Source of the DNA: Mesotoga sp. BH458_6_3_2_1
GTDB taxonomy: Bacteria > Thermotogota > Thermotogae > Petrotogales > Kosmotogaceae
Direction of reading: 5' to 3'
Assembly: GCF_003664995.1 (NCBI RefSeq)
Contig: NZ_JFHL01000014.1
Span: 1 to 64,000 of the forward strand
Length of the DNA: 64,000 nt
Shown: positions 38,965 to 64,000 of the stretch, in pieces
Layout of the letters: each line of letters starts with the position of its first letter
Numbering within the stretch: the stretch's first letter is position 1
Made by a program: the position numbers and the translations under genes
Notes under the pieces: generated by a model
Told to the model about the DNA's origin: nothing
Databases searched by the model: none
The model's input: the letters and a program-made list of their open reading frames with translations, nothing else

Positions 38965-39719
38965 ACTATAACCTCCGCTATATGGTTTCTAGCAGCGATT
39001 CTCATATTTTCGATCTCAGGATCTGAAAGTCTGACTGCGCCGCCTTCTTTCAAAATACTCTCTTTGTCAATCTTGTGTATGTTGAAAGACAGCTTCACTC
39101 TTCCAAGACCAGCTGACTTTTTTCCGCCAAGTCTGATAAATCCCTCATTCATAAGATCGATGATCATCAATACATATCCAACCTGATAATCATCAACGTT
39201 CTCGAGCAATATCTCTCCGGCGAAAACCGTTCCAGGATTCACAACTTCAAAATCGTACTTCCTACCACCTGCAGCATTTTCAGTATCTCTTCTTATCATC
39301 ACTCCATCTCTGATTGACGTAAAACTCTCGCCTGGCTCACCCTTCCTTATGGCGTCACTTATGTAAATGTGAGAAGAAATCGACTGTGAACCGAAGAGGG
39401 AACATACTTCGCAACTCTGTTCAATATCTTTGTACAATTTCTCGTTTGAGGAATCTTTTGAGCTATAACTGCACGTTGAATTTGTGCTGTCACAAACATA
39501 GAGACCTCTCATTCGTAGTATCGCTTCCAAGTTTGACCTAAAGACCCCTTTAAGAGATGCTCCGGGAATCACTGCATTTCCATCGGGCATTCGCATTATT
39601 GCGTTATCTGAATCGAGGGGTGAGATTGATTGATTACCAACTCCAATATGAAGAGGAGTGATGAGCTCTATTTCTATGTCTAGAGTATATCGATTGATAA
39701 AAGTATCAAAGAATCTCAT
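38961..39719 (-). CDS. Type III Cas7 (Csm3-like) RAMP protein
   Basis: This 252-residue RAMP has LHIGVGNQSISPLDSDNAIM, in which Asp38 matches the Csm3 catalytic position, then VIPGASLKGVFRSNLEAIL, a CEVCSLFGS knuckle and RLGGKKSAGLGRVKL. It is the closest of the set to canonical Csm3. It begins with an ATGA overlap with the small-subunit gene and is preceded by GGGAGG. Confidence 0.87.
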   Translation of the reverse strand: MRFFDTFINRYTLDIEIELITPLHIGVGNQSISPLDSDNAIMRMPDGNAVIPGASLKGVFRSNLEAILRMRGLYVCDSTNSTCSYSSKDSSNEKLYKDIEQSCEVCSLFGSQSISSHIYISDAIRKGEPGESFTSIRDGVMIRRDTENAAGGRKYDFEVVNPGTVFAGEILLENVDDYQVGYVLMIIDLMNEGFIRLGGKKSAGLGRVKLSFNIHKIDKESILKEGGAVRLSDPEIENMRIAARNHIAEVIV

Positions 39720-40039
39720 CTTCTCCCTCCCCTTTCAGCGGCAACAAACTTCGCAAACCTTGCCATGTAACCGAAGTAATATGAAATGGCTTCGAGAGTT
39801 TCTTCTTTAGCAAACTCCTTTATCTTTTCTACCTCTTTCATGAGTCCTTTTCTGAAAGGAAAAGTGTCCCTTCCAATCTGGTACTTCAGGTAGTTTTCAA
39901 ATTCCTCGACGCAAGATGACTGCTTTGCGATTTCGCAAAACTTACGAAGCTGCGTATCAGTATCAGTTCTGGACCCACCGCTCTGATAATATTCCTCTGC
40001 CATAGTAACCAGCTTTCTCTTTTGATCAGCACTGATCAT
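39716..40039 (-). CDS. Type III small subunit, Cas11 (Csm2-like)
   Basis: The 107-residue all-helical protein has the Csm2-style sequence TQLRKFCEIAKQSS, YLKYQIGRD and a closing helix EAISYYFGYMARFAKFV. Csm2 subunits form the inner filament of type III complexes. GGAGG precedes the ATG, and the gene lies between csx10 and a cas7 gene, the expected place. Confidence 0.75.
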   Translation of the reverse strand: MISADQKRKLVTMAEEYYQSGGSRTDTDTQLRKFCEIAKQSSCVEEFENYLKYQIGRDTFPFRKGLMKEVEKIKEFAKEETLEAISYYFGYMARFAKFVAAERGGRR

Positions 40040-40052
40040 ATCTATTCCTCCT

Positions 40053-41609
40053 TCACTTATAGATAACGAACTGACCGTATCCAGACCCGGTGAACTTTCC
40101 CAAACCTTTTATATATAGCTTCTCAACAGTCTCAACGGATTCTTCAACTGACAAATCGGTGTCGTAGATAAGAACCGTTCCTGCAGAAACGACATTTTGG
40201 AAAGGTTTAAGATTGTTGGAGGCTGAAGACCATCCCGAGGTATGAGAAGTCTTCAATAGGCTCAATGTGAGTTTGAACTCATTACCAAGCAGCATCTCTA
40301 TATTCTCGCCTTTCCGAAGTATGAGATCCGAGGTTAGCAGAATCGGAACATACGTACGATCTTTTCCCGAAACAGCTATCTGAATACTGTCATTGAAACT
40401 TCTTATTTCTGCTGACAAATCGATAGTATATTTTTTGATTTCTACAACTCTTACAAGTCCAAATCCTCTGGTCTTTGAATTGCCAATGTATAGCCAATCT
40501 TCATTAAGCACACTCAGAAGAGATTCCGACTCGGATCTGAAGAGTCCCGACATTTTATTATGGAAATACGTATTGTAAGTTCTCAGGGATCCGTCCTTTG
40601 CACTTCGTAACTTACTGTCAAGCGACACCTGAGTTGACGTATCACCTTTTCCTGAATCAAAAACACCGGTTCCTAGGACATACCATTTTCCGGCCCGGTC
40701 AAGTCTCTTACCGTTTCTAGCGTTTTTTACCGACAATTTCTTGCCTCTACTATTCTCAATGCTGGATATTAGTATAGTCCTCAGTTGATCGAATATTTCG
40801 TCAGAGTCTTCAGAATACTTCGCCCTAAGAATCGAGTCCGGGGAGGGATATGCAATAGCATCGTCTATCATTGGATAAAGGTTGGGAAACTTCACCCTTT
40901 CTAGTAGAAATATTTCTTTAAAATCCTTGGTGTCTTTCGACAATCGTGCCGCATATGCTCCTCTAAGTGTAGATCCCGGGATGTATTTGGCAGAGTTGTA
41001 CAGGTAAGACTTAGTTCTTTCCGAGGTGACCAGAAAAGGCTCCATTGGTTCGCATATTATCTGTGCTACTCTTGCTTGGGGAATATTCTTTATGCTGCTT
41101 TTCTCCACTTTGCCAGTTAGTCTGATGTCTATGAAACCGTAGCCGGCCGACTTCTTTGAACCGAGTTTCTTTGTGAGAGAGAGTAAGAGTAAAAGAATCC
41201 TCTCCTCGCTAGAAGTCAAGGGTGAAACGGTAAATACTTTTCCCTGGAACTTCACTCCAGTATTCACAGCACGTACCTTAAACAGCTTCTTTTGGCTCAC
41301 TGTCCTTGTCTTCCTATCCATAGAAATATGGGTGCGCTCAATAAAAAGGTTTGAATCACCTGGAGTCTTAACCGATAATTCAGTGAAGATGAGCTTTCCC
41401 TGATTTTCAGAATCACCAAAAAGAGAATTGACTTCATTTACGTATTCGCTTAGCATAGGCGAGACTTCTCTCAATGCTCCCTTAATGGCTGAACCTGGTA
41501 TTATTGGAAGGTTTTTCTTCATTGCAATGTCCTTTGACCAGACATCGCTTCCCGAATTTGAGCCAATAAGAAGAGGCGATTTGGTCTCGACTTCGATGTT
41601 GTATATCAC
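40053..41609 (-). CDS. csx10: Csx10-like double RAMP protein (Cas7-Cas5)
   Basis: Two RAMP units are visible in 518 residues. The first (1-175) has LPIIPGSAIKGALREV and LGSKKSAGYGFIDI, like a Cas7 subunit. The second (about 185-515) has LVTSERTKSYLYN, YIPGSTLRGAYAARL and GNSKTRGFGLVRV, as in Csx10, the Cas5-like subunit that marks type III-D. Its second unit would bind the crRNA 5' handle. The GTG start overlaps the cas10 stop (GTGA). Whether the N-terminal unit is universal in Csx10 or a special fusion needs alignment. Confidence 0.8.
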   Translation of the reverse strand: MIYNIEVETKSPLLIGSNSGSDVWSKDIAMKKNLPIIPGSAIKGALREVSPMLSEYVNEVNSLFGDSENQGKLIFTELSVKTPGDSNLFIERTHISMDRKTRTVSQKKLFKVRAVNTGVKFQGKVFTVSPLTSSEERILLLLLSLTKKLGSKKSAGYGFIDIRLTGKVEKSSIKNIPQARVAQIICEPMEPFLVTSERTKSYLYNSAKYIPGSTLRGAYAARLSKDTKDFKEIFLLERVKFPNLYPMIDDAIAYPSPDSILRAKYSEDSDEIFDQLRTILISSIENSRGKKLSVKNARNGKRLDRAGKWYVLGTGVFDSGKGDTSTQVSLDSKLRSAKDGSLRTYNTYFHNKMSGLFRSESESLLSVLNEDWLYIGNSKTRGFGLVRVVEIKKYTIDLSAEIRSFNDSIQIAVSGKDRTYVPILLTSDLILRKGENIEMLLGNEFKLTLSLLKTSHTSGWSSASNNLKPFQNVVSAGTVLIYDTDLSVEESVETVEKLYIKGLGKFTGSGYGQFVIYK

Positions 41610-43180
41610 GCTCTCACCCCATTCTGTAATGACATCGCTTTACTGAGTTCCATTAAAGTCAACACTTTACTTTCAATCTCTTCTTCTGAAGTGTCACCTA
41701 TTAGGAAATACTTGTTTATCATTTCTACGATATTCATTCCTAAGTCGTGAGATTTTTCTCCATGAGCGTAGAAATATCTCATGTTCAGTTTCGCAACCAA
41801 AGGATCATCTGCCATGCACGAAATTATCTTCTGAAGGAGGTTTGAAAACTTCTTGGGATCATCTATTCTTATGATTCGAAGAATCTCCTCAAACTCACTC
41901 ATCGGCAATCCTTTTCCCAAAGTCTCCTTTACCCTGTGACTAACACCAGGAGCTGTGAAAAAATGCTCCTGGATAGGGTTGAGAGAATTTTGAAGCAGCA
42001 TTCTGAATGCAACATAATTCCCCGGATTAGAGTAGTTAGCTTTGTACGCAGCTTTCTTGGCTGATTTTAACAATTCCTCAACTACTTCAAAAATGAATCT
42101 CACCGGAAGCTTCTTTGGAACTAGTGCCATTCCACAACAGAAACCTATTCCAAGCGCTTTGAAACCATTGTTGATACTCTCGGTAAGTGTTTTATATACT
42201 GCGAATAACTTTGCTGCAGGTACGAAGAGAAGTAAATCGTCTCCTCCGATTATTGGAGTCGAATAAGTGCCTTCTAACTTGTTTTCTACAATTGCTTTTT
42301 TCAGCGATTCTGAAACGCATCGTTCAATTGCCTGGCTCTTCTCTCTATAATCTCTTTCGTCACGGATCTTCGAGTACAGATTTCCCAAGTTATTGCCATC
42401 GATATAAATGACGCCGAACAGGTTATTTTGCGATTCAGGATCCTCAGTCACATCGATATCGTTTATAGAAAGTGCCATCTTCCTGTTCTTGATCAATTCA
42501 TTAGCAAGGTCTCTCTTTTCTTTGCATACCGGGCAAATATAATGGACCTCATCGTAAGATTCAATTTTTATCTGTGCGGCTTCTCTTGAACAGAACTCAC
42601 ATCTTTGTATTTCTTCTGTTAGAAGGAAACTACTGAATATCTCTTCGTTTCTTCTCTCTCTAAGTTTTGTAGATAGCCACTCGAAAAGATCAGAGAATTC
42701 TCCTGTACCCGTTAAGTCCTTAAGATCTTCTATCGGTGTTCCATTCCCGCGTTTCTTAAGACCATATATTAACTCATAAGGCTCAAGATTGACTCGCGAC
42801 ACAATCAACTTAGCTCCGGGGACATTCTTTGAGAAACTCTCGTTCAGCCAATCGGTAATGATTTTGCTATCCTCTACACTGCATATAAGTAACCCAGTTC
42901 CACCTGCGGCAATAACTACATGCGAACCCAATTTCTCGAGTTCCTCTGTTGCAAGACTATCGAATCTGCTCAAAGCATTGCTTGCACCAAACATCCCTCT
43001 GAAATCCGATGTAGAGAAGATGTACCTTTTTATTGAGGGAACATCGTACGAAAGAACACAGATTTTGGGAAGCGATTCATCTCTGTTATCCAGCCTCCTC
43101 CTAAGTTCTTCGTCCGTAGATCCTGTGCATTTTGCGAGTATTCTAATCACCGCTTCTTTGTCAAACAAACTCAAATTCAT
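41606..43180 (-). CDS. cas10: Cas10, HD-less, cyclase-competent
   Basis: This is the large type III subunit (524 residues). Two palm domains flank a zinc finger (Cys194, Cys197, Cys216, Cys219). The second palm has YIDGNNLG at 259-266 and GGDD at 312-315, the metal-binding cyclase motif that makes cyclic oligoadenylate. No N-terminal HD nuclease domain is present; the chain begins with the first palm. DNA cleavage is thus not expected, and signalling to the CARF proteins should be the output. GGAGGG precedes the ATG. Confidence 0.9.
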   Translation of the reverse strand: MNLSLFDKEAVIRILAKCTGSTDEELRRRLDNRDESLPKICVLSYDVPSIKRYIFSTSDFRGMFGASNALSRFDSLATEELEKLGSHVVIAAGGTGLLICSVEDSKIITDWLNESFSKNVPGAKLIVSRVNLEPYELIYGLKKRGNGTPIEDLKDLTGTGEFSDLFEWLSTKLRERRNEEIFSSFLLTEEIQRCEFCSREAAQIKIESYDEVHYICPVCKEKRDLANELIKNRKMALSINDIDVTEDPESQNNLFGVIYIDGNNLGNLYSKIRDERDYREKSQAIERCVSESLKKAIVENKLEGTYSTPIIGGDDLLLFVPAAKLFAVYKTLTESINNGFKALGIGFCCGMALVPKKLPVRFIFEVVEELLKSAKKAAYKANYSNPGNYVAFRMLLQNSLNPIQEHFFTAPGVSHRVKETLGKGLPMSEFEEILRIIRIDDPKKFSNLLQKIISCMADDPLVAKLNMRYFYAHGEKSHDLGMNIVEMINKYFLIGDTSEEEIESKVLTLMELSKAMSLQNGVRA

Positions 43181-43203: not shown

Positions 43204-44334
43204 TCAGAGCAAATATCTGTTGATAACTTCAACCGCTTTTTCTAGTTCATATGGATTTCTAGCTGTCGTTCGGATTTCCATGTACAGTGTTCCGCCTCTA
43301 GTACTGTATCTTGCCTTAATGATTTCCCCGAACTGCTTGCAGACGAATTCATTTCTGTCAAATTTTTGGCTTGAGCCCCTCACCAATACTTCTTCGATGA
43401 ATGGAATGGATACCAGCTTGTCTATGAATGATTGATTGTCCGAAATCATCTTGTTTGAATGGGCTTCTTTGGAGCTTTTCTTTAGTCTGTTCTCTATCGG
43501 TACAGAGCTATCCTTAAGACTCGCTTCAACATCCAGCTTTCCAAGACTCAATCTGCAGGCTTGGACAAAAACCTCGCCCATCGGACTCAGTGAAAGCATA
43601 TGACCTACTGAATCCTGTTCGCGGTCTATGAGAAGCTTAATTTCTGCGGGAAGCGAACTGAAGTTGATCCTGTAATCGTACTCTCTTTCCAGATCTTTTT
43701 CGTTTATTACGGAATTCATTTCCAGAGTGTCGAGAAGGCCTTTGTTCTCGAGCCAAAGCTCAACATCAAGAGACAGAGGCATTGGTGGCAGCTTTATAAC
43801 GCCATCAAATGTCTCGAAGCGGTAATAAACTGGGATCTTAACCCCCATCCCGAAAGCTAGAGAAAGCGCGATCTGAGCCTTGTATCCTCCTGTAGCGTTG
43901 ATAAGTAGATTATCCATGTGATGTTTGTAAATCTCGGCAATTTTCTTAACTAGATTACGCAAGCCTTTGTTCTGGAAATCGTCTGGTCTTGAGTCATCAA
44001 GATCGGATATTGGATTCACGGAGACATTTTCGAAGCTCATATCTTTCGAGTGATCAAAGAATGATTTGAGAGCGTCACCGATCTTCTTGCCTTCTTCGGT
44101 ATCCGAGGTCAAGAAGTATAGGTAGTCTCTCGAAGACAAGACAGACTGAGAAAGAATTGACGCAAGAGAGTTAATCTCAGCTCCAAAGTCGCGATTCCCG
44201 ATCGGATCTTTCAAGTGAAGCAGACGATCAGCAATTTCAATCGAAGCCATGGAGCACAGTTTTCTCAAGCTTGCTCCAACTGTGCAGATAATCGTGTTTA
44301 TGACGGTTTCCCCCTGTCTTCCCTCAAAGTGCAA
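43204..44334 (-). CDS. CARF-domain protein, APE2256/Csm6-like
   Basis: Residues 12-190 form a CARF domain (NTIICTVGASLRKL and NATGGYKAQIALSLA at 146-160). A linker resembling a winged helix follows, and the last 75 residues (IEEVLVRGSSQKF, ARYSTRGGTLYMEI) form a small alpha/beta module I cannot name. No HEPN RxxxxH motif is evident, so it is not an ordinary Csm6. It could be a ring nuclease or an effector with a new output domain. The start is uncertain: the TTG at 44334 has a poor site, whereas GGGGG at about 44305 points to a non-canonical ATA near 44301. Confidence 0.78.
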   Translation of the reverse strand: MHFEGRQGETVINTIICTVGASLRKLCSMASIEIADRLLHLKDPIGNRDFGAEINSLASILSQSVLSSRDYLYFLTSDTEEGKKIGDALKSFFDHSKDMSFENVSVNPISDLDDSRPDDFQNKGLRNLVKKIAEIYKHHMDNLLINATGGYKAQIALSLAFGMGVKIPVYYRFETFDGVIKLPPMPLSLDVELWLENKGLLDTLEMNSVINEKDLEREYDYRINFSSLPAEIKLLIDREQDSVGHMLSLSPMGEVFVQACRLSLGKLDVEASLKDSSVPIENRLKKSSKEAHSNKMISDNQSFIDKLVSIPFIEEVLVRGSSQKFDRNEFVCKQFGEIIKARYSTRGGTLYMEIRTTARNPYELEKAVEVINRYLL

Positions 44335-45092: not shown

Positions 45093-45108
45093 CATAATCA
45101 CACTTTTT
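45093..45108 (-). promoter_or_regulatory. Recurrent promoter-like motif (copy 2)
   Basis: On the minus strand AAAAAGTGTGATTATG, then about 43 bases to the ATG of the small membrane protein. Confidence 0.6.
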
Positions 45109-52775: not shown

Positions 52776-53759
52776 CTACCACCACATGTGAAGCGCTTTG
52801 TACTCCTCCTCTGAAAGAAGTGACCGGATCAGTTTGTAGCATTCGGTTAGAAGAAGCGTGTTGTACGAGACTTTCCTTTTTAGTGTTGGATGAAAGACCG
52901 TCTCTTCCATGAATTTCTCGAAGTGCTCTACGTACTTCTTCATTCCTTCATTGGTAAGAAGGGTTGAATTCATTTCCTTATCGAAGTCGTCTTCTGTAAT
53001 GATGGTTTTGTTTAGTAGAGTCATGATCAGTCTGTCTACTATTACCGGCTTGAAGACCTCGCTTATGTCAAGGCAGAGCGAGAATCTCATTTCGCAGGGT
53101 TCGTGTAGGAAGCTTACTGTGGGGTCGAGCTGAGTCTGATAGATCTTGCTGAGTGTTCTGGTGTAGAGAAGAGAGTTTCCGAAGGAGATCATGCAGTTGA
53201 GTATACCCAGTGGAGGCTGTCTGACTCTTGTGACGAATTCCTGACCGGTCAGCCCTGCAAGAATCGGATAATAGTATTGTCTGAAAGCGCCCTCGACAGC
53301 CATTACCGAGTTGATTCCGGTCGTGTTCTGAAGTCTTTCTCTAGTGCTTTTCAGCCCCTCTATCTTGTCTTTGTAACCGGGAATCTTGCTGGATGATCTC
53401 TGAAGTACCCTGAGCATGTTGTGCATCGCTCCGTCGATGAATTCTCTAGATAGCTTCAGCCTTTTAATAGGGTCGAGAAAGGTTCTGACCTGTTCTACCA
53501 GTAGTTTCCCCGAGACTTTTTGCTTCCTCGGTACGAAACTCCCGCTGTACCAGCCATTATGCGAGTAGACATGGAGCGCAACTTCCTTTTGGGAAAGAAA
53601 TGAGAGAAGACGGGTATTAAGATCGATTTCTCCAAAGGTTGAAATCGATTCGATCTTTTCTATTGGAATGAACTTTCTTCTACCCTCGCGTTCTAGTAAG
53701 AGAGTGTTGTCTTTTCTGCTCAGCTGTCCGCTGGCAAAGAGATAGAAGTTCTTCTTCAT
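52776..53759 (-). CDS. cas1: Cas1
   Basis: This is the integrase of spacer acquisition (327 residues from the chosen start). It has SVMAVEGAFRQYYY with catalytic Glu156, FLHEPCEMRFSLCLDISEVF with His219 and the nearby acidic residue, and KPVIVDR. The N-terminal beta domain is ASGQLSRKDNTLLLE. It is of the type I-B branch. The start at 53759 is fixed by AGGAGG just upstream; the longer frame begins inside cas4. It is the last gene of the I-B operon and lies beside the main array's leader. Confidence 0.95.
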   Translation of the reverse strand: MKKNFYLFASGQLSRKDNTLLLEREGRRKFIPIEKIESISTFGEIDLNTRLLSFLSQKEVALHVYSHNGWYSGSFVPRKQKVSGKLLVEQVRTFLDPIKRLKLSREFIDGAMHNMLRVLQRSSSKIPGYKDKIEGLKSTRERLQNTTGINSVMAVEGAFRQYYYPILAGLTGQEFVTRVRQPPLGILNCMISFGNSLLYTRTLSKIYQTQLDPTVSFLHEPCEMRFSLCLDISEVFKPVIVDRLIMTLLNKTIITEDDFDKEMNSTLLTNEGMKKYVEHFEKFMEETVFHPTLKRKVSYNTLLLTECYKLIRSLLSEEEYKALHMWW

Positions 53760-53770
53760 GATCAAACCTC

Positions 53771-54280
53771 CTAGGAAAAGCAGAGATCGAAGTAAGAGCA
53801 ACCTTTGCAGCCTTTCTTGAATAGCGGAACGGGCGCGCTTTCGAGGTTGAAGATCGTCTTTATCTCTTCGAGATCTCTTCTTATCTGTTGTTCATCTTCT
53901 TCGGTAAGTGAGATCATGATCATTTTCTTGGCTCTAGGATATGTAAGTCGGGCAGTGAATCCGTGAAGGCCAAGTTTGTGCTTTAGGTAGTAGAGATAAT
54001 ACTTGACCTGATAGATGTGACCTTCTCTCACTTCTTTGCCATACTTAATTTCAACGATTTCTCTTGTGTTTCTTAGTATGTCGAGAGAGATTTCGTCGAT
54101 CACAATGTCTTTGTCTTCGCCCTGGCTGTATTCTTCTTGGAGAAGCTTGCCGAGCTGAACGCTCTCTGAAGTAGATTCCATAGATATGTTGTGCAGAAAG
54201 AACCAGAGTTGTGTCTTGCAGTAATGGAGATAGTTGATTGCATTACCTCCTATCCTCGGCTGTCTTTCGGTGATTTCCAT
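53771..54280 (-). CDS. cas4: Cas4
   Basis: This 169-residue RecB-type nuclease with an Fe-S cluster processes prespacers. Cysteines 21, 158, 161 and 167 form the cluster site (final stretch GCKGCSYFDLC). Nuclease residues appear in VIDEISLDIL and IVEIKYGKE, then HIYQVKYYLYYL (QhxxY motif). Its ATG overlaps the cas3 stop (TGATG). Confidence 0.93.
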   Translation of the reverse strand: MEITERQPRIGGNAINYLHYCKTQLWFFLHNISMESTSESVQLGKLLQEEYSQGEDKDIVIDEISLDILRNTREIVEIKYGKEVREGHIYQVKYYLYYLKHKLGLHGFTARLTYPRAKKMIMISLTEEDEQQIRRDLEEIKTIFNLESAPVPLFKKGCKGCSYFDLCFS

Positions 54281-56334
54281 CAGGTGTCCTCGACTATGGG
54301 GCTTTCGTCTTCTTTCGGACCGAGGTAGCCGAGTGATGGATTGTAGATGATTGGCGCGTAGATGAATCCGTCATCATCCTTTTCCAAACGCCCGATGACA
54401 TCCTTTACAGGTACTTTGACAAGTTTGCCGAGTTTCTGCATCTTGCCTGAATTATTGGCTCTGAATTCAGAAGGAATGACTTCGATGGTCTTGTAGGGGA
54501 TGCGGCGAATCAGGTCGTCTGCAAGCCTTTGATCGATTGACATCGAATAAATCTGGAAGTTCATCTCTCTCACAAACTGCCAGCTTGCCTTACCGGCAGA
54601 GATCTCCTCTTCAATGTTCTCGATTTCAGAGAGTAAGTTTTCCATCATTTCCCTTAGTTCAAGTCCGCTAGGTGTTTGACGGGCTTTTAGGAGTCCAAGA
54701 GATTTGTCGACAAGGTTCTTGTTATAGATAGAATATGAGTTTTCATTCTGAGGGAAGATGATAACCTCACCTATCGGAGTGGTGCCTTCTCTGTTTACTC
54801 TCCCGAATCGCTGGGTGAGCGAGTCAATCGGTGCAGCTTCTGTTATGAGGACATCGTAGCTTATATTAAGGCTAATTTCGATCGTCTGTGTGGCTACGAT
54901 GATTCTCGGAGGAGAATCTCCCGTTATGCGAGAGAGGATTCTTTCCCTGTCCTCGAGGTTGAAGCGGCCGTGATAGAGAACTATGTCTTTATCTGGCATC
55001 TTATCGGACAGGGTTTTGAAAGCTTCGGTGGCCTTTCTGACGGTGTTGAAGCATAGAATGGCTCTTTTTCCCTTTTCATATTGTCTCTTTGTCTCTTCAA
55101 CAGGGTCGACTTCTTCTAAATGAGAGATGGTGATTCTTCTCAGCGATTCACCTTCGTAATCTCTCACTATCACAGGGTCATCAAGAACTTCCTTGAGCTT
55201 CTGGATCATGTAGGAAGGGAGAGTGGCGCTCATCACGCAAACTGGAGTACCCATGGCTTTAAGCATTTTTATGCTTTCAAGCAGTATGCCAAATGTGTAC
55301 GGTTGGCTCGCGTGGATCTCGTCGAATATGACCGCCGAATTGACGATATTTACTATCTTTGGCTCCCATCTTCCCCAGTTAAGTGACATGAGAAGAAGCT
55401 GATCTAGAGTAGCGACGTTAAATGGGTTGTCAAAGGCTTTCATCCAGAAGATTCTATCTCGGGTGTCTTCTGAATATCCTTCGTTAGAATACAAATAGTA
55501 TGCGATGTTGCCGTGGACCAGACCGGTTTTGTCGGACACTTCTTCCGTGTATCTTTTGTACATAGCTTCGACTGTTGTCACTGTGGGAAGAAAGAGGGTG
55601 GACTTTTCTCTTCCAGTCGATTTTGTCCAGACAAGAGCGGCGAGAGATTTTCCACGACCAGTAGGAGCGAGGATTATCGTGTCCTTTCCGGTAGAGGCCT
55701 CTGCTTGAAATGTGCGCAAGGGCCGAGAATCGAGTTTTATGCTTGCTGATGAGAGGGGCTTCTTTGCGGAAGCCGACCAATCTGCAAGGTTTAGAATTCC
55801 CTGGATCAAGAAATAGAGTCGCCGATCGCGAGGTGCGCCAAAAAAGAAGTTGCAGAGTCTCTTGAGAAGTTCTCGAGGAGAAGGTATCTGCAAGTTGAGA
55901 TCGGGAAGCTCAATGCTGAAGTGGCCCTTCGCATAGTCTTTTATCTCCTTGAATTCATTCACAAGTTCGGGGTTTGGAGTCGCCTGTTGTCTTTGAAATT
56001 CCAAGGATGAAAAAGAGTCTTTGAATCGAGAACCATGATGGCCCAGTATAGACTGGAGGATGTAGTTCTTGATGGGGGATTCATTAAGAGAGGCCATAGC
56101 TATCTGAGCCGAAGCAAGTGAGTGGGAAAAGCCTTTCTTGTCGAAGGAGAATTCTACACAGCCTTTCCCGATGTCGTGGAAGGCGCAGGCGGTTAGAATT
56201 GCTTCTGAGATTTGTTTTGGGTCAAGATTCGTGTTTTTGAGGGCGATTTTGTTTTGATCAAGATAGCTATGAGCGTAATCAAGAACTCTCTCGGTATGCT
56301 CTATTAGGCTTACTCCCGGCTTTGCGAGAGACAT
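54280..56334 (-). CDS. cas3: Cas3 nuclease-helicase (type I-B)
   Basis: In 684 residues an N-terminal HD nuclease (His13, HD at 53-54 in AFHDIGKG, His71, HH at 99-100) precedes an SF2 helicase: IILAPTGRGKSLAALV (Walker A), AVIFDEIHA, VMSATLP, IVATQTIEISLNI and LTQRFGRVNREG. It is recruited by Cascade to degrade target DNA. All catalytic motifs are intact. GGAGG precedes the ATG four bases after cas5. Confidence 0.95.
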   Translation of the reverse strand: MSLAKPGVSLIEHTERVLDYAHSYLDQNKIALKNTNLDPKQISEAILTACAFHDIGKGCVEFSFDKKGFSHSLASAQIAMASLNESPIKNYILQSILGHHGSRFKDSFSSLEFQRQQATPNPELVNEFKEIKDYAKGHFSIELPDLNLQIPSPRELLKRLCNFFFGAPRDRRLYFLIQGILNLADWSASAKKPLSSASIKLDSRPLRTFQAEASTGKDTIILAPTGRGKSLAALVWTKSTGREKSTLFLPTVTTVEAMYKRYTEEVSDKTGLVHGNIAYYLYSNEGYSEDTRDRIFWMKAFDNPFNVATLDQLLLMSLNWGRWEPKIVNIVNSAVIFDEIHASQPYTFGILLESIKMLKAMGTPVCVMSATLPSYMIQKLKEVLDDPVIVRDYEGESLRRITISHLEEVDPVEETKRQYEKGKRAILCFNTVRKATEAFKTLSDKMPDKDIVLYHGRFNLEDRERILSRITGDSPPRIIVATQTIEISLNISYDVLITEAAPIDSLTQRFGRVNREGTTPIGEVIIFPQNENSYSIYNKNLVDKSLGLLKARQTPSGLELREMMENLLSEIENIEEEISAGKASWQFVREMNFQIYSMSIDQRLADDLIRRIPYKTIEVIPSEFRANNSGKMQKLGKLVKVPVKDVIGRLEKDDDGFIYAPIIYNPSLGYLGPKEDESPIVEDT

Positions 56335-56338
56335 TATT

Positions 56339-57034
56339 CTACCTCCAGAGGGGAAAGACAGTATCTGAGACAGCTACTGCTTCTCCAGAGTATTCGACCG
56401 GTTCGGAGATGTATGTGTAAGGTGATCTGTTTCTTGGCCTCCGTACTTTCGGGTTCCGTTTATCTCGATCAAATTCGCTATTCAGCCAGTAAGTCTTGAA
56501 GTGAGGGATACTCCCTTCACTTAGAGCGGTGATGTTGATCTTGCCTTGAAGGTCTCCCTTAACCACAGTGTTGTGTATGACTGATTTCTCCACCCTCTCT
56601 GCGGTCTCTAATTCAGACTGGATAAAGGTTATGAACTCGTCGTCCCTTCCCAGACTTAGGGGGAAGCAGGGATCGGAGATAGCTTTCTCGATCTCTTTTA
56701 GTTTGGTCTCGGGGCCCACAATTAAAAGTATAATATTGGGTCGATAGAGGACCTCTCTTATTACGACAGCCTTACCAATGGATCTTCCACCGTCTTTTAC
56801 CTTCTTTATCGCCCATGCGTCTTTCGCCATTCCTTCATTCTCCTGTATGTGTACGCCGAAAGAAAGGTCCCGGCAATAGTTCTGTGCTTCGAAGTATTCT
56901 CTGCCGGTAGCTGCGCCGATTATTCCAGTGATCGTGGTGGGCGGAGGAAAGGGCAGGCTCTCCTGATAATTCATGGATGCGGGGCTTCGAAAGGAAGCTG
57001 TGTATCCTTTTATTGAGATTTGGAGCACTAACAT
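56339..57034 (-). CDS. cas5: Cas5 (type I-B)
   Basis: This Cascade subunit (231 residues) caps the crRNA 5' handle. The opening MLVLQISIKGYTASFRSPAS, then LPFPPPTTITGIIGAATG is diagnostic of Cas5 in type I-B. ATG at 57034 follows GGAGGTG; the longer frame starts before that site. It is separated from cas7 by a terminator-like hairpin. Confidence 0.92.
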   Translation of the reverse strand: MLVLQISIKGYTASFRSPASMNYQESLPFPPPTTITGIIGAATGREYFEAQNYCRDLSFGVHIQENEGMAKDAWAIKKVKDGGRSIGKAVVIREVLYRPNIILLIVGPETKLKEIEKAISDPCFPLSLGRDDEFITFIQSELETAERVEKSVIHNTVVKGDLQGKINITALSEGSIPHFKTYWLNSEFDRDKRNPKVRRPRNRSPYTYISEPVEYSGEAVAVSDTVFPLWR

Positions 57035-57055
57035 CTTTTCACCTCCATTGGAAAA

Positions 57056-57075
57056 GGCCCCTCGCATGAGGGGCC
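57056..57075 (-). terminator. Hairpin between cas7 and cas5
   Basis: GGCCCCTC/GAGGGGCC pair over eight bases with a four-base loop and are followed on the minus strand by TTTTCC. It may attenuate transcription after cas7. Confidence 0.7.
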
Positions 57076-57079
57076 AGTG

Positions 57080-57961
57080 TTATATTGTTGAAAGAATCTC
57101 TTTCACTCTGGAGAAGGCATCTGTCATGGGAAGAACTTCAACTGTCTCAGGAACTCCACCATCCAGCGCAGATGCGTCAAGTACTTTCGTGGTTCCAATG
57201 ATTACGCGATCGATTATGCTTGAATAATTGGTAATGCTATCGATCAGCGTTTCGGCCATGATCTTTCCCTTTGTATCACAGCTTACGGATTCGAGGAGGA
57301 AGGGAAGCTTTACTGTTTGAAAGGCGAAGGTGATGAATTTCGGAGAGATGTCTGATAGTATGTTGGTCTGCTTTCCGCCTGTCCAGAGAGTCATCATGGA
57401 ATCGAGGAAGAGGTTGAGTCTTCTCAAGCGCTCTTCTTTCTGTATCTCGAGTGTGGTCTCTTTGATTTCAGAAGGATCGAATTTGCCGACCCTGTCAAGT
57501 TCTATGAGTCCACCGCCTCTGAGATACGCGGAGTAGACTTCGGTTTCAACCATGTTTCCGCCCTTGTCGCTGGCTTTTCTTGTCTTTGTAAGTAGATCTC
57601 TGTCGCCTCTGTAAGGGAAGAGAGATACGAGCGGGGCGATTCTTACGGGAGACGTTCTCTTTCTGTTGTCACCGGTTACCGCGATCATGTAGCCGAAGAG
57701 GTCGTCGTCGATGTAGTTCAGCGGATCTCCGAGTGTAGTTTCGACTTCTCCATCTACGGGAGTGGAGAGGGCCTCGCCGATTTCTGCAAATCTCTCTCTC
57801 AGGCCGTGGCGCTGACATTGTCCGGAAACGTAGTTGAATGCGGATCCGTCTGGAGCGACGATCTTTTTTGCGGTCTGAATGTTGCCTTCTGTGAATCCTG
57901 CGTTGGGGTTACCCATAGTGACTTTGGATATTGAACCCCAGGAGAGACACTTAATCTGCAA
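57080..57961 (-). CDS. cas7: Cas7 (type I-B backbone subunit)
   Basis: About 293 residues. It has GSISKVTMGNPNAGFTEGN, DLFGYMIAVTGDNRKRTSPV and VYSAYLRGGGLIEL, as in DevR/Csh2-type Cas7 proteins that polymerise along the crRNA. The start is the TTG at 57961: GGAGGTGAAAAGA lies right before it, and it overlaps the last codons of cas8b, so the upstream in-frame ATG is not used. Confidence 0.92.
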   Translation of the reverse strand: MQIKCLSWGSISKVTMGNPNAGFTEGNIQTAKKIVAPDGSAFNYVSGQCQRHGLRERFAEIGEALSTPVDGEVETTLGDPLNYIDDDLFGYMIAVTGDNRKRTSPVRIAPLVSLFPYRGDRDLLTKTRKASDKGGNMVETEVYSAYLRGGGLIELDRVGKFDPSEIKETTLEIQKEERLRRLNLFLDSMMTLWTGGKQTNILSDISPKFITFAFQTVKLPFLLESVSCDTKGKIMAETLIDSITNYSSIIDRVIIGTTKVLDASALDGGVPETVEVLPMTDAFSRVKEILSTI

Positions 57962-59252
57962 TCTTTTCACCTCCATTCTGTGAGGATGCATAATGTCTCG
58001 AAAGGTATTTGTTTACGGCGAAGATTACAAGGAGAGCCTTGGGCTTCTTCCAGGTTTCCTCGTTGAGAATCCTTATGAACTCTTCGGGGATTCTGATCTT
58101 CCAATCCTCTTTTGCGTACTTGAATTCAAGATCGGCAAGGGTGAGCAAGAGATCTTCCAGAGAGCGGCTGTTGCGTAAAGAGTATAGATCGCCGAAGCTC
58201 TGGGCTTCAAAGACCGCGTTGCCAATCACTTCTCCGGCCTTTTTTGAGAGATCGATTGTCATTTGATCCAAGCCATTCACTCCTTTCATGGTATTTGATG
58301 CAACTATCACCTCGTATATAGAACGGACAGGGTAATCGAAATCAAAGATGATCATCTGAAGCCTTTCTTCGAGTGGCTTGAAAGAGAGGATCATTCTGGA
58401 TATCTCTTCACGTCTCGAAACGTCGGCAGAGGGGCTTCCGGGGATTACCAGACTGTCCATGAATTTCGAGAAGTCGCCACCCAGGGTCTCCACGTTTTCG
58501 AAAAAGGTTGTCAGCTCCTCAACTCTCTCGAATGAGTCGAAGTTGAGAAATGAGTTGTTTCTTCCAGTGTTCGAGACCTGCATAACTTTGAACGAAGAGC
58601 GGGGAATGAATCTGGTCTTCTCGAACAGGGTGTGAAGAGAAAGGAGAAGAGTCTCATAGGGTTCCTGAGGATAGAATCTCGATTTGACCTTCAGGTTTCT
58701 CCATGAACCGGGTTCGTAGAGATCCTTCATCCAGAGAAATGTATTGTAGGTCGATTCAAGAGTATCGCTCTCCGGGAAGAGGTAAGTGATCACGTAGTCC
58801 TGCCCGTCCTTATAGGATGTGTAGAACAAGGCGAGACCGGCCATCATTCCAAGGAACTGGCAGTCAAGGCAGACTTCGCCGCTTCCTGAGCCGAAGCTGA
58901 AGAAGCTCTGAAAGTTCTCGGCTTTTACCGAGAGAGGATCTCCCAGCATCGACAGTTTTTCGAGAGTTGAGACTCTAGAACCGCAAAGACTGCATACTTT
59001 GCTTCCAATCTTGTTTTCCTCGAGGATCTTTGAGACTTTGTCCAGAACTGTGTACTGCTTTAGAAAAGGTCTGAGGTTTGGCGCCCAGGGCTTGCCGTTC
59101 TTGTTGAGCATATCTTTGAGAGCATTCTCGAAGATTATCTTTTTGGGCGTCTGTGTCTCGAAAAGGTTTCCCGTGATAGTACAGTCTGCAGTATATCTCT
59201 TTATCGCGACCGCTCCGGCCATTTGCCAGAAACTTCTTATATGAACTCTCAT
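57951..59252 (-). CDS. cas8b: Cas8b (type I-B large subunit)
   Basis: This protein of about 433 residues has a zinc finger formed by CSLCGS and CLDCQF, the usual Cas8b1/Csh1 feature, then FLGMMAGLALFYTSYKD. By position and size it is the PAM-recognising large subunit of the I-B Cascade, although the sequence is divergent. ATG at 59252 follows AGAGGTG. It opens the cas operon, or follows the cysteine-rich small gene with a 16-base gap. Confidence 0.82.
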   Translation of the reverse strand: MRVHIRSFWQMAGAVAIKRYTADCTITGNLFETQTPKKIIFENALKDMLNKNGKPWAPNLRPFLKQYTVLDKVSKILEENKIGSKVCSLCGSRVSTLEKLSMLGDPLSVKAENFQSFFSFGSGSGEVCLDCQFLGMMAGLALFYTSYKDGQDYVITYLFPESDTLESTYNTFLWMKDLYEPGSWRNLKVKSRFYPQEPYETLLLSLHTLFEKTRFIPRSSFKVMQVSNTGRNNSFLNFDSFERVEELTTFFENVETLGGDFSKFMDSLVIPGSPSADVSRREEISRMILSFKPLEERLQMIIFDFDYPVRSIYEVIVASNTMKGVNGLDQMTIDLSKKAGEVIGNAVFEAQSFGDLYSLRNSRSLEDLLLTLADLEFKYAKEDWKIRIPEEFIRILNEETWKKPKALLVIFAVNKYLSRHYASSQNGGEKIAD

Positions 59253-59268
59253 GTGACACCTCTTTCGG

Positions 59269-59442
59269 TTAAGAATTGTCCTCACAGTTTTCGCAGACGT
59301 TTCTTCCTTCCTGAATTGTGCAACCGCAGCAGTCGCAGAAGACTCCTTTGCACCAGCAGGTCGCGCAGGCGCTGCCTTCTAAACCAAATCCCTCATCTTC
59401 ATCTAGGCAATCATCCTCGTAGAAATCTCTTTCGTCTTCCAA
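59269..59442 (-). CDS. Small cysteine-rich acidic protein
   Basis: A 57-residue frame starts at TTG 59442 after GAAGGAGGTG. It encodes an acidic N-terminus (EDERDFYEDDCLDEDEGFG) and a cysteine cluster (CATCWCKGVFCDCCGC, then CENC), ten cysteines in all, which should bind zinc. It is preceded within 30 bases by the recurrent promoter-like motif and ends 16 bases before cas8b. No family is known to me. It could be a zinc-ribbon regulator or an accessory of the I-B operon. An ATC six bases after GGAGG, in the same frame, is an alternative start. Confidence 0.7.
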   Translation of the reverse strand: MEDERDFYEDDCLDEDEGFGLEGSACATCWCKGVFCDCCGCTIQEGRNVCENCEDNS

Positions 59443-59466
59443 GATGGCTCACCTCCTTCAAGCTTT

Positions 59467-59482
59467 GTAATCACACTTTTTT
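59467..59482 (-). promoter_or_regulatory. Recurrent promoter-like motif (copy 3)
   Basis: On the minus strand AAAAAAGTGTGATTAC, 25 bases before the cysteine-rich gene and upstream of the whole I-B cas operon. Confidence 0.65.
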
Positions 59483-59837: not shown

Positions 59838-59853
59838 CATACTCACACTTTTT
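59838..59853 (-). promoter_or_regulatory. Recurrent promoter-like motif (copy 4)
   Basis: On the minus strand AAAAAGTGTGAGTATG, a slightly diverged copy, upstream of the 100-residue protein gene. Confidence 0.55.
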
Positions 59854-60308: not shown

Positions 60309-60324
60309 TATAATCACACTTTTT
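60309..60324 (-). promoter_or_regulatory. Recurrent promoter-like motif (copy 5)
   Basis: On the minus strand AAAAAGTGTGATTATA, about 55 bases before the 49-residue gene. Confidence 0.65.
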
Positions 60325-60346: not shown

Positions 60347-61036
60347 TCAGAAGAGATTGAGCTGATTATCATTGCCGGGTTCTCTTGAGATCAGCGCGTT
60401 AAAAAGAATCGAATAGGTCTTGATTCCTATTCCTCTAATGTCTAGGATCTCTCTGAAACGAGTGACGTCTTCGCGTTTGTCCAGAAGTCTTTTTATGATC
60501 GAAGGCCTGAGAGTAAGGCATTTCAGTTCATATTCAGACATCGCCCTTAGCTGTTTTATCATCGATTCCTCGGTTTTCGAAGTGGTTTTATCCAGACAGA
60601 GAAGTATTTCTGCCTTTGAGCTTTCAAATACCTCTCTTGTTATGTTCTCCGATGTTTGAGGATCTATACCCCCCTTTCCTGCCCCGGCCAGAGGAAGGGC
60701 AACTCTTTCAAAATTGCTTTCTGTTATGATCTCTTCTGCACGCTTAAGAGAGGAACGTATCCAGGAGATTTTTGATGGCATCTTCCAGTCTTCTTTGACA
60801 AACAGGCTGATTATCCTTGGAAAAATATCTCCTCGGAATATCCAGGCCGAACCGGGAGAGGGACTTTCGTGGGAGCATTTCTCTCTGTAATTATCAAAAT
60901 AGCTAGGAAATCTAAGTTTGAACTCAAGCGCCAATCCGGCACCCATAACTCCCTTTGTATTGACTGTGTTTGCGATGACGGGCACTTTCTCTTCTTCAAA
61001 TGCGGCAAATACACTTTTCTTATAAACAGTTATCAT
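60347..61036 (-). CDS. Macro-domain antitoxin, DarG-like
   Basis: The first 150 residues are a macro domain: VPVIANTVNTKGVMGAGLALEF (ADP-ribose loop with Asn and the GAG turn) and VALPLAGAGKGGIDPQ. DarG uses this domain to remove ADP-ribose from DNA. The remaining 80 residues (SIIKRLLDKREDVTRFREIL) are helical and shorter than in classical DarG. ATG at 61036 follows GAGGG, four bases after the toxin stop, the usual darT-darG order. Confidence 0.85.
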   Translation of the reverse strand: MITVYKKSVFAAFEEEKVPVIANTVNTKGVMGAGLALEFKLRFPSYFDNYREKCSHESPSPGSAWIFRGDIFPRIISLFVKEDWKMPSKISWIRSSLKRAEEIITESNFERVALPLAGAGKGGIDPQTSENITREVFESSKAEILLCLDKTTSKTEESMIKQLRAMSEYELKCLTLRPSIIKRLLDKREDVTRFREILDIRGIGIKTYSILFNALISREPGNDNQLNLF

Positions 61037-61040
61037 GATC

Positions 61041-61631
61041 TCAGCCCTCGAAGTAATAGTTGTATCCGCTATCGCGGAGTTGTCTGATGGAGACTCCGTT
61101 AATCTTTTCCGTAGTTCCGTCTAGAATTATACATTCGATCCATTCCGGTTCGATCATGTCGGTCTTCACTAAGATCTCGGCACCAAGTCTTTTCTTGAGC
61201 AACCTGTTATCGTAGAAATTTCTTGCTGAAAGCACCAGTTCAATATTTATCTTCTTGAGAGCGGCTTCACTTAGAGTGTAGATCTCGGCATCACTGCAGG
61301 CGGCGATTCTGTCAGATACCAGGCAGTCATAGTGGGTTACTAGATCGCTATTCAGTCTTAGAATCGCGAAATCTCTCTTTTCTTTCTGGTAGCGGAAGGT
61401 CATCGCATTCCTGGTATTCAAGAACAGCGGTACATATTCATGTAGGGACTTTCTTTCTCTGATCGTTTGAACGGTCTGATCTGAGTAATCATCGTACGGT
61501 ATCTCCAGAGTCTCTACTGCCATCTTGCTCATTACTCCGTGTTCGAGTATCGAAGGAATGTTATTTACTGGCGAAAGATAGTAGAGATGCTTCACTCCGA
61601 ACGCCTGTAAGGGATTACTGCTCGTAACCAT
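61041..61631 (-). CDS. darT: DarT-like DNA ADP-ribosyltransferase toxin
   Basis: The 196-residue protein matches DUF4433/DarT: LYYLSPVNNIPSILEHGVMS (NAD-binding), EYVPLFLNTRNAMTF with Arg74, and GAEILVKTDMIEPEWIECII with the likely catalytic Glu152. DarT modifies thymidine in single-stranded DNA and DarTG pairs act in phage defence. GGGAGGTGA precedes the ATG, and a recurrent promoter-like motif lies 24 bases upstream. Confidence 0.85.
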   Translation of the reverse strand: MVTSSNPLQAFGVKHLYYLSPVNNIPSILEHGVMSKMAVETLEIPYDDYSDQTVQTIRERKSLHEYVPLFLNTRNAMTFRYQKEKRDFAILRLNSDLVTHYDCLVSDRIAACSDAEIYTLSEAALKKINIELVLSARNFYDNRLLKKRLGAEILVKTDMIEPEWIECIILDGTTEKINGVSIRQLRDSGYNYYFEG

Positions 61632-61654
61632 TATCTCACCTCCCTTTCAAGGTT

Positions 61655-61670
61655 TATAATCACACTTTTT
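61655..61670 (-). promoter_or_regulatory. Recurrent promoter-like motif (copy 6)
   Basis: On the minus strand AAAAAGTGTGATTATA followed by AACCTTGAAAGGGAGG, giving a very short leader for the darT transcript. Confidence 0.7.
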
Positions 61671-61679
61671 TACGAGGCT

Positions 61680-61707
61680 TTGGATTCTCAAATGGAAAGC
61701 GTATAAT
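61680..61707 (+). promoter_or_regulatory. Promoter of the RNA polymerase-like gene
   Basis: TTGGAT at 61680-61685 and TATAAT at 61702-61707, 16 bases apart, read rightward towards the start at 61760 and are divergent from the darT promoter. Confidence 0.55.
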
Positions 61708-61759
61708 ATCGTTGAAACTGAATTACTAATTCTTTGCAGTTGTCTGTTTTGGAGGATTT

Positions 61760-64000
61760 ATGGTTAAGAAAATCACTTATTCCTTGCAGCAGGTCTTCGC
61801 CGGTCTAGAACTTCTGATAAAAGAGGACTACAGATCGTTGTTCGAGAAGTTCTCTCCGGGATTGCGACTGATCGAAACGCTCGAGGAGCCTTCCGGTTCT
61901 GCTCTAGCGGAGTTCTCGTTTACATTCGAAGAAGAACGTTATTCTGTAAGGTTCAAGGTTCTATATCCCGATCAGGATGGTGCCTTTTCATATCTTTCGA
62001 AAATGTATTCAACGCCGCTGGTTCTGCTTGAGAAGAGGGGACGTTCCTCTGACTATCTCGATCTCGAGAACTTCTGGATAGTGCCAGGGTATTACTTGAG
62101 AATGGCCTTTGTGTGCTTGCAGGTTTTGAGAGAACTGCAGTCAAAAAACGGCATGGAACGTGTAGATACAGTCCTCGAAACGGCTGAAACTCTTCTCAAC
62201 AGAACTGTTGTTGGAACCGAGATTCTCAAGCAATACGACAAAGGTGACATTGAGGAAGAACCCGAGATAAAGAATCCGAAGTATCTGAAAGTCCCGATCC
62301 TCTTTGAACTGCCCTCTTCAAACGGGCTTCTGCAGATATCCGAGCTGAGAAAGGCGGTCATACCCGGAGACAAGGTAAAGGAGTCGCTTAGGTTGCCTCA
62401 TTTCTCCCATCTAGGGAAGCTGGATCTTCTCGAGACTCCTGAATCCGTGAGAATCGGAATGAATCTCTTCCTTGCAAACGGCGCCCGTTGTGATGCTTCG
62501 AATCTTGAGATAGAAAGCAGTGGCGAAGATTCCGAAGCCCTTCTTAGCCCTTCTACTTGTGCTGTTCCTTTCATTGCATACTCAGATGGCGTTAGGGTTA
62601 CTATGGGGGGCAAGAATCTGAAGCAGGCAGTAAAGGTCGTTTCCAGCGAAAAGCCAATAATTCGGACTCCCATAGATGAGGAAGTTGATCTTGACTACGG
62701 TGTCAATGCCCTAGCAGGATATGCGTTGTTCAACGGCTTGAACTTCGAAGATGGAATAGTCTGTTCTGAAGGGTTTGCAACGAAAATGTGCGTCGTAGAG
62801 AAAAAGACAATTGAAATCGTTGACTCAGTTCCTGTATTGCTAAATGCGAGGGTCAGTGTTAAGAACAGGTCTACGATAGAGCTTTCCAGTGAGGAAGGTT
62901 CGATAAGGGTTGTTTACCGCTTCAGAACAAAAGGTTCAATTGTTAATAAGGGCGATTGGTTGATGAAGAGAAGCGTCTTTTTTGGGGGGAGCGATGATCC
63001 CAATAAGTCGTATTCAAAGAATATCTACTATGACCTTTCATATCCAGGAGAGATTCTGAAGAATCCAGAAGAGGAAATGATCTCGTTCATTATGAGAACC
63101 ATACCCACCGCCAGGAAGATAAAGAAGGGGGAAAAGTTAGTAGACAACTTGAACGAGAGCGTCGTCTCCGTAACGGTTCCCTTGACTATCACAAAGCCGC
63201 TCGAAATTGGTGACAAGATTACTGGCAGGCATGGAAACAAGGGCACTATATCGAAGATCGTTTCCAACACGGAGATGCCACATGTCGAGATAGATGGCGT
63301 ACTCAGACCTCTGGACGTTATTCTGAGCCCCTTCGGGGTAATAACCAGGATGAATCTCGGTCAACTTCTAGAGACGCACAAATCACTTGAAGGTGAATAT
63401 GTCGATAGACCTTTTAAGAATCTGGACCTCGCTTCCAGAGTCGCTAAAGGAAGAGACATACCACAGCTGAAGAAGAGACTCTTTTTTGCAGATGGAACTT
63501 CGTTTGAGGCAGCAGTCGGTTATCAGTATTTTGTAAGGCTAGATCACTGCGTAAGGGACAAACTCCATGTAGTAGATCTAGCGGAGACCTCCAAGATTAC
63601 GGGACAGCCAGTGAAGGGAAAGCGGAGAGAGGGTGGGCAAAGAATCGGCGAAATGGAGTTTTGGACTCTCTTCGACAACAGTGCACTTGAGACGGTGGGG
63701 AGGTTTTCTCAAACTAACATCAGCGACGCTTCAGAGTTCAGAAAGCGCTATTTCGATACCTTCAGGCTTCTTATGAACTACTACAGGGATTTTGATGTTG
63801 AGATAGAGGACGGCCCGTTGAGAATAATCGTAAAGAATGCTTCTGACGAGTTCTTCGAAAAAGTCACGAGCGACGAAACCATGAGCGAGTTCTTCAAGCA
63901 GATAAAAGGGAAAGCGAAAGACAGAAAGGAGAAAAGGTTCCTGCTATCGAAATCGGGATACTTGAGAAAGTACATGCTTGGAAGACGGATTCACTCTTCT
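61760..64000 (+). CDS. Divergent single-chain RNA polymerase (beta fused to beta-prime), partial
   Basis: The frame starts with ATG after GGAGG and is open to the window edge (747 codons, no stop). It carries RNA polymerase beta motifs in order: HFSHLGKLDLLETPES (225-229 for ETPES), NGLNFEDGIVCSE (328-331 for NFED), GDKITGRHGNKG (484-495, including both active-centre lysines), RMNLGQLLETH (530-540) and GGQRIGEMEFW (625-635). ETPES lies at about residue 225, against roughly 560 in E. coli beta, so the N-terminal lobe and protrusion are much reduced. After residue 690, LLSKSGYLRKYMLGRRIHSS resembles the beta-prime switch-2 region (KGxxGRFRxNLLGKRVDYS), without the beta-prime zinc and clamp domains before it. 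It is not the housekeeping rpoB. Confidence 0.85.
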   Translation, partial: MVKKITYSLQQVFAGLELLIKEDYRSLFEKFSPGLRLIETLEEPSGSALAEFSFTFEEERYSVRFKVLYPDQDGAFSYLSKMYSTPLVLLEKRGRSSDYLDLENFWIVPGYYLRMAFVCLQVLRELQSKNGMERVDTVLETAETLLNRTVVGTEILKQYDKGDIEEEPEIKNPKYLKVPILFELPSSNGLLQISELRKAVIPGDKVKESLRLPHFSHLGKLDLLETPESVRIGMNLFLANGARCDASNLEIESSGEDSEALLSPSTCAVPFIAYSDGVRVTMGGKNLKQAVKVVSSEKPIIRTPIDEEVDLDYGVNALAGYALFNGLNFEDGIVCSEGFATKMCVVEKKTIEIVDSVPVLLNARVSVKNRSTIELSSEEGSIRVVYRFRTKGSIVNKGDWLMKRSVFFGGSDDPNKSYSKNIYYDLSYPGEILKNPEEEMISFIMRTIPTARKIKKGEKLVDNLNESVVSVTVPLTITKPLEIGDKITGRHGNKGTISKIVSNTEMPHVEIDGVLRPLDVILSPFGVITRMNLGQLLETHKSLEGEYVDRPFKNLDLASRVAKGRDIPQLKKRLFFADGTSFEAAVGYQYFVRLDHCVRDKLHVVDLAETSKITGQPVKGKRREGGQRIGEMEFWTLFDNSALETVGRFSQTNISDASEFRKRYFDTFRLLMNYYRDFDVEIEDGPLRIIVKNASDEFFEKVTSDETMSEFFKQIKGKAKDRKEKRFLLSKSGYLRKYMLGRRIHSS

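Follow-up and report, generated by a model that had tools for sequence, protein, structure and literature searches.

The reading frame that begins at position 61760 of the window (the whole 64,000-nucleotide stretch of Mesotoga DNA analyzed here) encodes a compact single-chain β-β′ RNA polymerase (RNAP), and we are highly confident that it is functional and belongs to a CRISPR-linked three-gene system, together with a middle protein and an AAA+ protein. We give an even chance to a specific role, in which it is a dedicated, DNA-dependent enzyme that its own AAA+ motor opens via the middle protein, under type III CRISPR control. The polymerase set probably switches on a private group of defense genes.

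61760..64000, plus strand: single-chain β-β′ RNA polymerase, first 747 of 1300 residues (Pfam, motifs, alignment to housekeeping RpoB/RpoC)

The frame extends past the window to 65662 on contig C14 (81,889 b) of genome G000, giving a chain of 1300 residues with no internal stops. Pfam matches were obtained to Rpb2 domain 6 (E 5.7e-33), Rpb1 domain 2 (E 3.2e-22) and Rpb1 domain 5 (E 1.3e-15). Residues 484–495, GDKITGRHGNKG, form the β motif of the GDKxxGRHGNKG type with both active-center lysines, and the β′ portion carries NRQPSLHRH (residues 801–809), the catalytic motif GADFDGDSM (835–843), a bridge helix (1003–1026), a trigger loop (1135–1156) and an F-loop. A sequence-only reading of the window had proposed such a compact fused chain, with its catalytic end to be looked for beyond 64000; the extension bears this out, since GADFDGDSM and the trigger loop follow in the same frame with no early stop, and the neighboring genes include no separate rpoC-like one. 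The family profile matched bacterial β′ chains in the PDB (E ~1e-61). All 30 of the AAA+-linked RNAPs examined, 26 from Thermotogota and 4 distant, keep DFDGD and both active-center lysines.

We aligned the chain to the housekeeping RpoB and RpoC of the same genome, which are encoded by separate, intact genes on contig C2; the single-chain RNAP is additional to these. The N-terminal domains of β (the lobe/protrusion region) are absent or unrecognizable, in agreement with the earlier view that the N-terminal half of β is shortened. Approximately the first 480 residues of β′ are likewise absent or unrecognizable, a region that takes in the clamp, the N-terminal zinc ribbon and the sigma-docking coiled coil. 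The earlier claim that the β′ clamp and zinc finger are lacking thus holds for the N-terminal zinc ribbon, but a second zinc site is present (C1038, C1102, C1111 and C1114) and is invariant across the clade-A alignment. The sequence evidence lends good support to the chain being a complete, compact, single-chain core of the multisubunit (double-psi β-barrel) type, which would synthesize RNA from a DNA template.

Two kinds of single-chain polymerase invite comparison. The fused RpoB-RpoC housekeeping chains (NCBIfam PRK09603 and PRK14844) also hold β and β′ in one chain, but these models are full-length (2839–2890 positions) and the RNAP described here scores 208–227 bits against cut-offs above 4600. 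With 1300 residues, and not being the sole RNAP of its cell, it is not of the housekeeping fusion type. YonO of prophage SPbeta is a single-peptide RNAP with no trigger-loop homology (PMC5467207). Both are single-chain relatives of multisubunit RNAP; however, YonO is prophage-borne and lacks the trigger loop, whereas the enzyme described here keeps the trigger loop and bridge helix and sits in CRISPR islands.

The RNAP gene opens an operon in which the genes for RNAP, middle protein and AAA+ protein are translationally coupled. The second and third genes and cas6 lie beyond the window, and so were outside the sequence-only reading.

C14:65620-66528, beyond the window, RNAP operon: middle protein, 302 residues
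C14:66525-67898, beyond the window, RNAP operon: receiver-AAA+ activator, 457 residues
C14:67916-68695, beyond the window, RNAP operon: cas6

In all Thermotogota members the middle protein starts with 30 residues of net positive charge and continues with 30 of strongly negative charge; the domain behind them shows a pattern, R..L...G...L..T..GRP, that is loosely conserved. The protein has no Pfam match, no PDB relative by sequence and no detectable homology to sigma54 (RpoN; hhalign probability 0.2%), and its predicted structure (pLDDT 50) was too poor for a structure search. The layout of the protein recalls that of sigma54, as an analogy and not a homology; the flexible N-terminus of sigma54 is drawn into the pore of the PspF ring (PMC9770992). 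Middle proteins from outside Thermotogota do not match the Thermotogota profile, and therefore their equivalence is positional only.

The AAA+ protein of this genome matches Sigma54_activat with E 1.2e-32, and the Walker A motif is intact throughout the family. Nearly all Thermotogota members have the loop G-[AS]-[FYW]-T-[GD]-[AS]; at the GAFTGA position the sequence is GSWTGS in this genome, GAFTGA in close relatives and GA[FY]TDA in most others. The AlphaFold2 model of the UBA1373 homologue (pLDDT 83) has an N-domain resembling a receiver, then a helical linker and the AAA+ domain, and aligns to NtrC1 (Z 25.4) across 365 residues that span the receiver and AAA+ parts. The receiver Asp is not conserved. 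The chain stops after the lid, leaving no C-terminal HTH, and no DNA-binding domain was found; certain known bEBPs also lack the HTH. PADLOC matches the protein to RtcR (CARF-AAA-HTH) over residues 189–441 only. We set aside the CARF domain implied by this name as unlikely, since the match covers the AAA+ part alone and the N-domain is modeled as receiver-like, without the conserved Asp. The protein resembles the sigma54 bEBPs NtrC and PspF in its AAA+ domain, its receiver-AAA+ layout and probably its sigma54-contact-type loop, but differs in lacking an HTH, in having its own polymerase and an unrelated middle protein, and in occurring in hosts without sigma54.

This last difference bears on whether the AAA+ protein is an ordinary bEBP for the host sigma54-RNAP, with the single-chain RNAP merely a co-regulated product. 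Sigma54 is encoded in this genome and in most carriers, and the loop in Mesotoga members is near GAFTGA, as such a role would have it. Against it, sigma54 was not detected in at least six Thermotogota carriers (G006, G007, G054, G094, G095 and G097, of which G094 and G095 are 99% complete) or in either actinobacterial carrier, and the missing HTH speaks the same way; we find this reading hardly credible. In the hosts without sigma54 the AAA+ protein must therefore act on something else, and its constant neighbors, the RNAP and the middle protein, would be the natural targets. The loop sequence showed no link to the absence of sigma54. Among 395 Actinomycetes genomes, a strong sigma54-activator domain was present in three, one of which is an RNAP carrier; the PF00158 count of bEBPs included many weak AAA+ cross-matches, and the three strong ones alone were used.

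The AAA+ partner also bears on the template. In an RNA-templated alternative, the enzyme would copy crRNA precursors or invader transcripts, amplifying guides or targets for type III. Eukaryotic RdRPs have the same two-barrel single-chain architecture, and cas6 lies within the operon in Mesotoga-genus carriers, but it lies outside the operon in most others, the partner is an AAA+ protein of the promoter-melting type, and the enzyme retains the bridge helix and trigger loop that characterize DNA-dependent polymerases. We regard this alternative as very unlikely. An RNA-dependent defense polymerase was one of three roles put forward in the sequence-only reading, and is disfavored on account of the retained bridge helix and trigger loop and the constant promoter-opening-type partner. 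A second, the polymerase of a mobile element, lost ground as well: a scan of viral contigs found no relative, and phage and plasmid searches gave housekeeping genes or remote phage RNAPs, so that a viral origin was rejected. The third, transcription of a dedicated set of genes, is the best supported.

We tabulated orthologues and their neighbors, as the earlier reading had suggested. With a profile of the family-specific β segment, 26 of 103 Thermotogota species proved to carry the RNAP, their scores falling into two classes; the middle protein (ORF302) as sole marker undercounts, with 9 carriers. The chain is uninterrupted in 25 of these genomes, more than chance would give, and another genome holds a fragment. 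Where no contig end cuts the locus, which is the case at 23 Thermotogota loci, the genes for RNAP, middle protein and AAA+ protein always follow in this order, overlapping or nearly touching. A pattern scan of a genome contig collection found RNAP, an ORF and AAA+ in the same order in three other phyla, in four carriers (Ozemobacter, Propionibacteriaceae, Bifidobacteriaceae and a Desulfobacteraceae MAG), and a tree places the Thermotogota family apart from these four with support of 1.0. G097 has two copies of the operon, on two short contigs (L099 and L100). Another kind of compact single-chain RNAP was seen in Armatimonadota (L031:4712-8292 and L034:8949-12625; 1005 and 1038 residues). There an ECF-type sigma factor gene immediately precedes the RNAP gene, an AAA+ partner is lacking, and neither bridge helix nor trigger loop can be recognized; the pair is possibly a two-gene cassette of sigma factor and RNAP.

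Next to the RNAP gene lies a CRISPR island. Going away from the RNAP, it begins with the divergent darT and darG, continues with type I-B cas genes and with arrays, and then reaches a type III-D locus (25615-44334).

61632..61759, no strand: divergent darT/RNAP intergenic region; by inspection, a TATAAT (61702-61707) is oriented toward RNAP, and the island motif toward darT
61041..61631, minus strand: darT, DNA ADP-ribosyltransferase toxin (PF14487, E 2.2e-32)
60347..61036, minus strand: darG-like macro-domain antitoxin (PADLOC DarG, E 1.2e-30)
52776..59285, minus strand: type I-B cas1, cas4, cas3, cas5, cas7 and cas8b
43204..44334, minus strand: CARF7-type protein (CARF_DUF2103/RelE)
41606..43180, minus strand: Cas10 with GGDD cyclase motif
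36808..41609, minus strand: type III-D effector genes (Csm3-like Cas7 subunits, Cas7-Csx10-like protein)
29919..33014, minus strand: large RecQ/DpdF-like helicase, 1031 residues (PADLOC C3a193, 1746 bits)
26643..29873, minus strand: CARF-CYTH-HD protein, 1076 residues (PADLOC CARF7--CARF_CYTH_HD, PDLC01929, 491 bits)
25615..26664, minus strand: CARF7-type protein (CARF_RelE-like)

The sequence-only reading had correctly placed the RNAP divergently beside darT and CRISPR genes; two features within the window, an island-specific promoter-like motif and the type III-D locus that encodes the CARF-CYTH-HD protein, had been left unconnected. A sigma70 consensus scan of the darT/RNAP intergenic region gave no full match. 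The PADLOC model matched by the helicase carries the description 'poss. alt. Cas3', and a homologue of this helicase adjoins the RNAP operon in G020. The darTG pair recurs beside the RNAP operon or linked Cas operons in several Thermotogota (including L105:5875-9261), and some of these loci are preceded by the island motif.

Across genomes, the gene most tightly linked to the RNAP is that of the CARF-CYTH-HD protein. Called at E<1e-70, it is present in 16 of the 103 genomes, comprising 16 of the 26 RNAP carriers and none of the 77 non-carriers (Fisher 2.4e-12), and Cas10 occurs in 19 of 26 carriers against 30 of 77 non-carriers (p 0.003), both p-values being guides since species are not independent. 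The CARF-CYTH-HD gene adjoins the RNAP operon in G020, G027, G006, G008, G066, G094 and G095, and is directly upstream of the RNAP gene in the last two; in this window the distance is 32 kb, within the same island. In G094 and G095 (L089:10636-12915 and L090:10512-12737) it abuts or slightly overlaps the RNAP gene, making a four-gene operon that sits beside the Cas10 operon. The link between the RNAP set and genes for type III CARF proteins is thus well supported. A clear Cas10 was not found in 7 of the 26 Thermotogota carriers, nor in three of the four carriers in other phyla; therefore type III control is not universal.

A linkage of this kind has been reported before. Altae-Tran et al. (2023, PMC10910872) described UAS-58, a 'two-component RNAPol + CARF' found close to type III CRISPR loci. 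As in that main-text phrase, the present system has an RNAP gene with a CARF protein gene near type III CRISPR, and by comparison with the phrase the two are very likely the same or related families. The linkage of an RNAP to type III as such is probably not new. The main text on UAS-58 does not describe the single-chain architecture, the AAA+ activator, the middle protein, the absence of sigma54 or the promoter-like motif; RNA polymerase is not mentioned in the main text of the 2025 CRISPR classification or the 2024 type III survey, and the library entry for CARF7--CARF_CYTH_HD is silent on a polymerase partner. Our literature search found nothing on this system beyond UAS-58. In the literature searched, we met no description of the architecture, the AAA+ partner in hosts without sigma54, the middle protein, the motif or the breadth of occurrence, which therefore appear to be undescribed.

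We then consider the motif, AAAAAGTGTGATTATA.

61655..61670, minus strand: AAAAAGTGTGATTATA, 0 mismatches, just upstream of darT
60309..60324, minus strand: island motif, 0 mismatches, downstream of darG and upstream of the ORF114 region
59838..59853, minus strand: island motif variant, 2 mismatches, at the ORF114 start
59466..59481, minus strand: island motif, 1 mismatch, upstream of cas8b
45093..45108, minus strand: island motif, 1 mismatch, upstream of the type III CARF/cas10 region, ~760 nt before the CARF gene
33174..33189, minus strand: island motif, 0 mismatches, upstream of the RecQ-like helicase and CARF-CYTH-HD genes

These six sites in the 64-kb window compare with 0.06 expected. 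All are on the minus strand, 5′ of minus-strand island genes, and in most cases CTTGAA or a variant comes right after the motif. Across the 3.23-Mb genome there are five sites with ≤1 mismatch, every one of them within the 28-kb island; in the close relative G025, six of the seven sites with ≤2 mismatches lie in the island. This near-confinement rules out a plain housekeeping promoter. A looser form, AAAGTGT-N10-14-TTGA, has 18 matches in 437 kb of carrier loci against 2–4 for control patterns. In Athalassotoga (G008), CARF-CYTH-HD and Cmr genes have a version of the motif in front of them, as does the helicase gene of G020.

Whether the motif is the promoter of the dedicated RNAP or the site of another CRISPR regulator is about evenly balanced. 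It stands, in strict or loose form, at the edge of the RNAP operon in G000, G020, G032, G006, G008 and G064, pointing away from the RNAP or into the next operon, which favors the first. It is also present in G010, G011 and G024, where the RNAP was not detected, and most clade-B carriers lack it, as do the carriers G023 and G027; it may therefore belong to another regulator. The genomes without a detected RNAP are drafts with short contigs, which weakens that argument. In G010, G011 (L140, L141) and G024 (L136-L138) the motif precedes cas6, darT, cas8b and a helicase gene, the G010 sites being those before cas6 and darT. A version in which the motif is an operator or promoter of a separate regulator, read by the housekeeping RNAP while the single-chain RNAP serves other targets, is plausible, at somewhat less than an even chance. 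It is compatible with middle-protein gating, cyclic oligoadenylate sensing and AAA+ opening.

The motif bears likewise on whether the polymerase has promoters of its own at all. Most type III ancillary proteins are effectors, the RNAP is tightly linked to the CARF-CYTH-HD protein, and its AAA+ protein has no DNA-binding domain that we could find. The RNAP might thus be a suicide or interference effector, in which cyclic oligoadenylate leads the AAA+ protein to unleash unregulated transcription that drains NTPs or disturbs replication and host transcription, with no private promoters. Promiscuous transcription, however, would need no AAA+ protein of the promoter-opening type, yet one is conserved at every intact locus, and an island-specific promoter-like motif exists. 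We consider an effector of this kind unlikely.

We propose that a dedicated, AAA+-opened RNAP would work as follows. At rest, the middle protein, with its basic flexible tail, acidic stretch and folded domain, would hold the RNAP closed on promoters; sigma54 plays this part in ordinary bEBP-dependent transcription. On infection, Cas10 would make cyclic oligoadenylate, which either the CARF-CYTH-HD protein or, directly, the AAA+ protein with its receiver-like domain would sense. The AAA+ ring, with its sigma54-activator-type loop and no DNA-binding domain, would then engage the tail of the middle protein and open promoter DNA by ATP hydrolysis, without sigma54, allowing the RNAP to transcribe its private gene set. 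The best candidate targets in this genome would be the units behind AAAAAGTGTGATTATA, namely darT, the ORF114 region, cas8b, the cas10 region and the RecQ-helicase/CARF-CYTH-HD genes. This promoter assignment is the weakest link; AAA+ opening via the middle protein, DNA-dependent transcription of a private regulon and the cyclic oligoadenylate trigger are inferred. There are precedents: in CalpL/T/S, cA4 signaling is connected to a sigma factor, and for Cam2 it has been proposed that a receiver domain senses cyclic oligoadenylate (PMC11229360). Like CalpL-CalpT-CalpS, the system would turn a type III CRISPR signal into a transcription response, but there a protease frees a sigma factor for the host RNAP, whereas here the polymerase itself would be dedicated. 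More tentatively, it is possible, but on balance doubtful, that these genes represent a further mode of initiation, in which a single-chain RNAP without sigma70 or sigma54 uses its own unrelated gating factor and a private AAA+ ring, switched on by type III CRISPR second messengers, at an island-specific promoter.

The RNAP raises the question of how a multisubunit-type polymerase without recognizable sigma-docking domains chooses and opens its promoters. This is directly testable, and the RNAP and its two partners, encoded in one short operon of a thermophile, are convenient for reconstitution. If the proposal is true, AAA+ promoter opening would be separated from sigma54, and CRISPR immunity in approximately a quarter of the sampled Thermotogota species would involve a private transcription machine.
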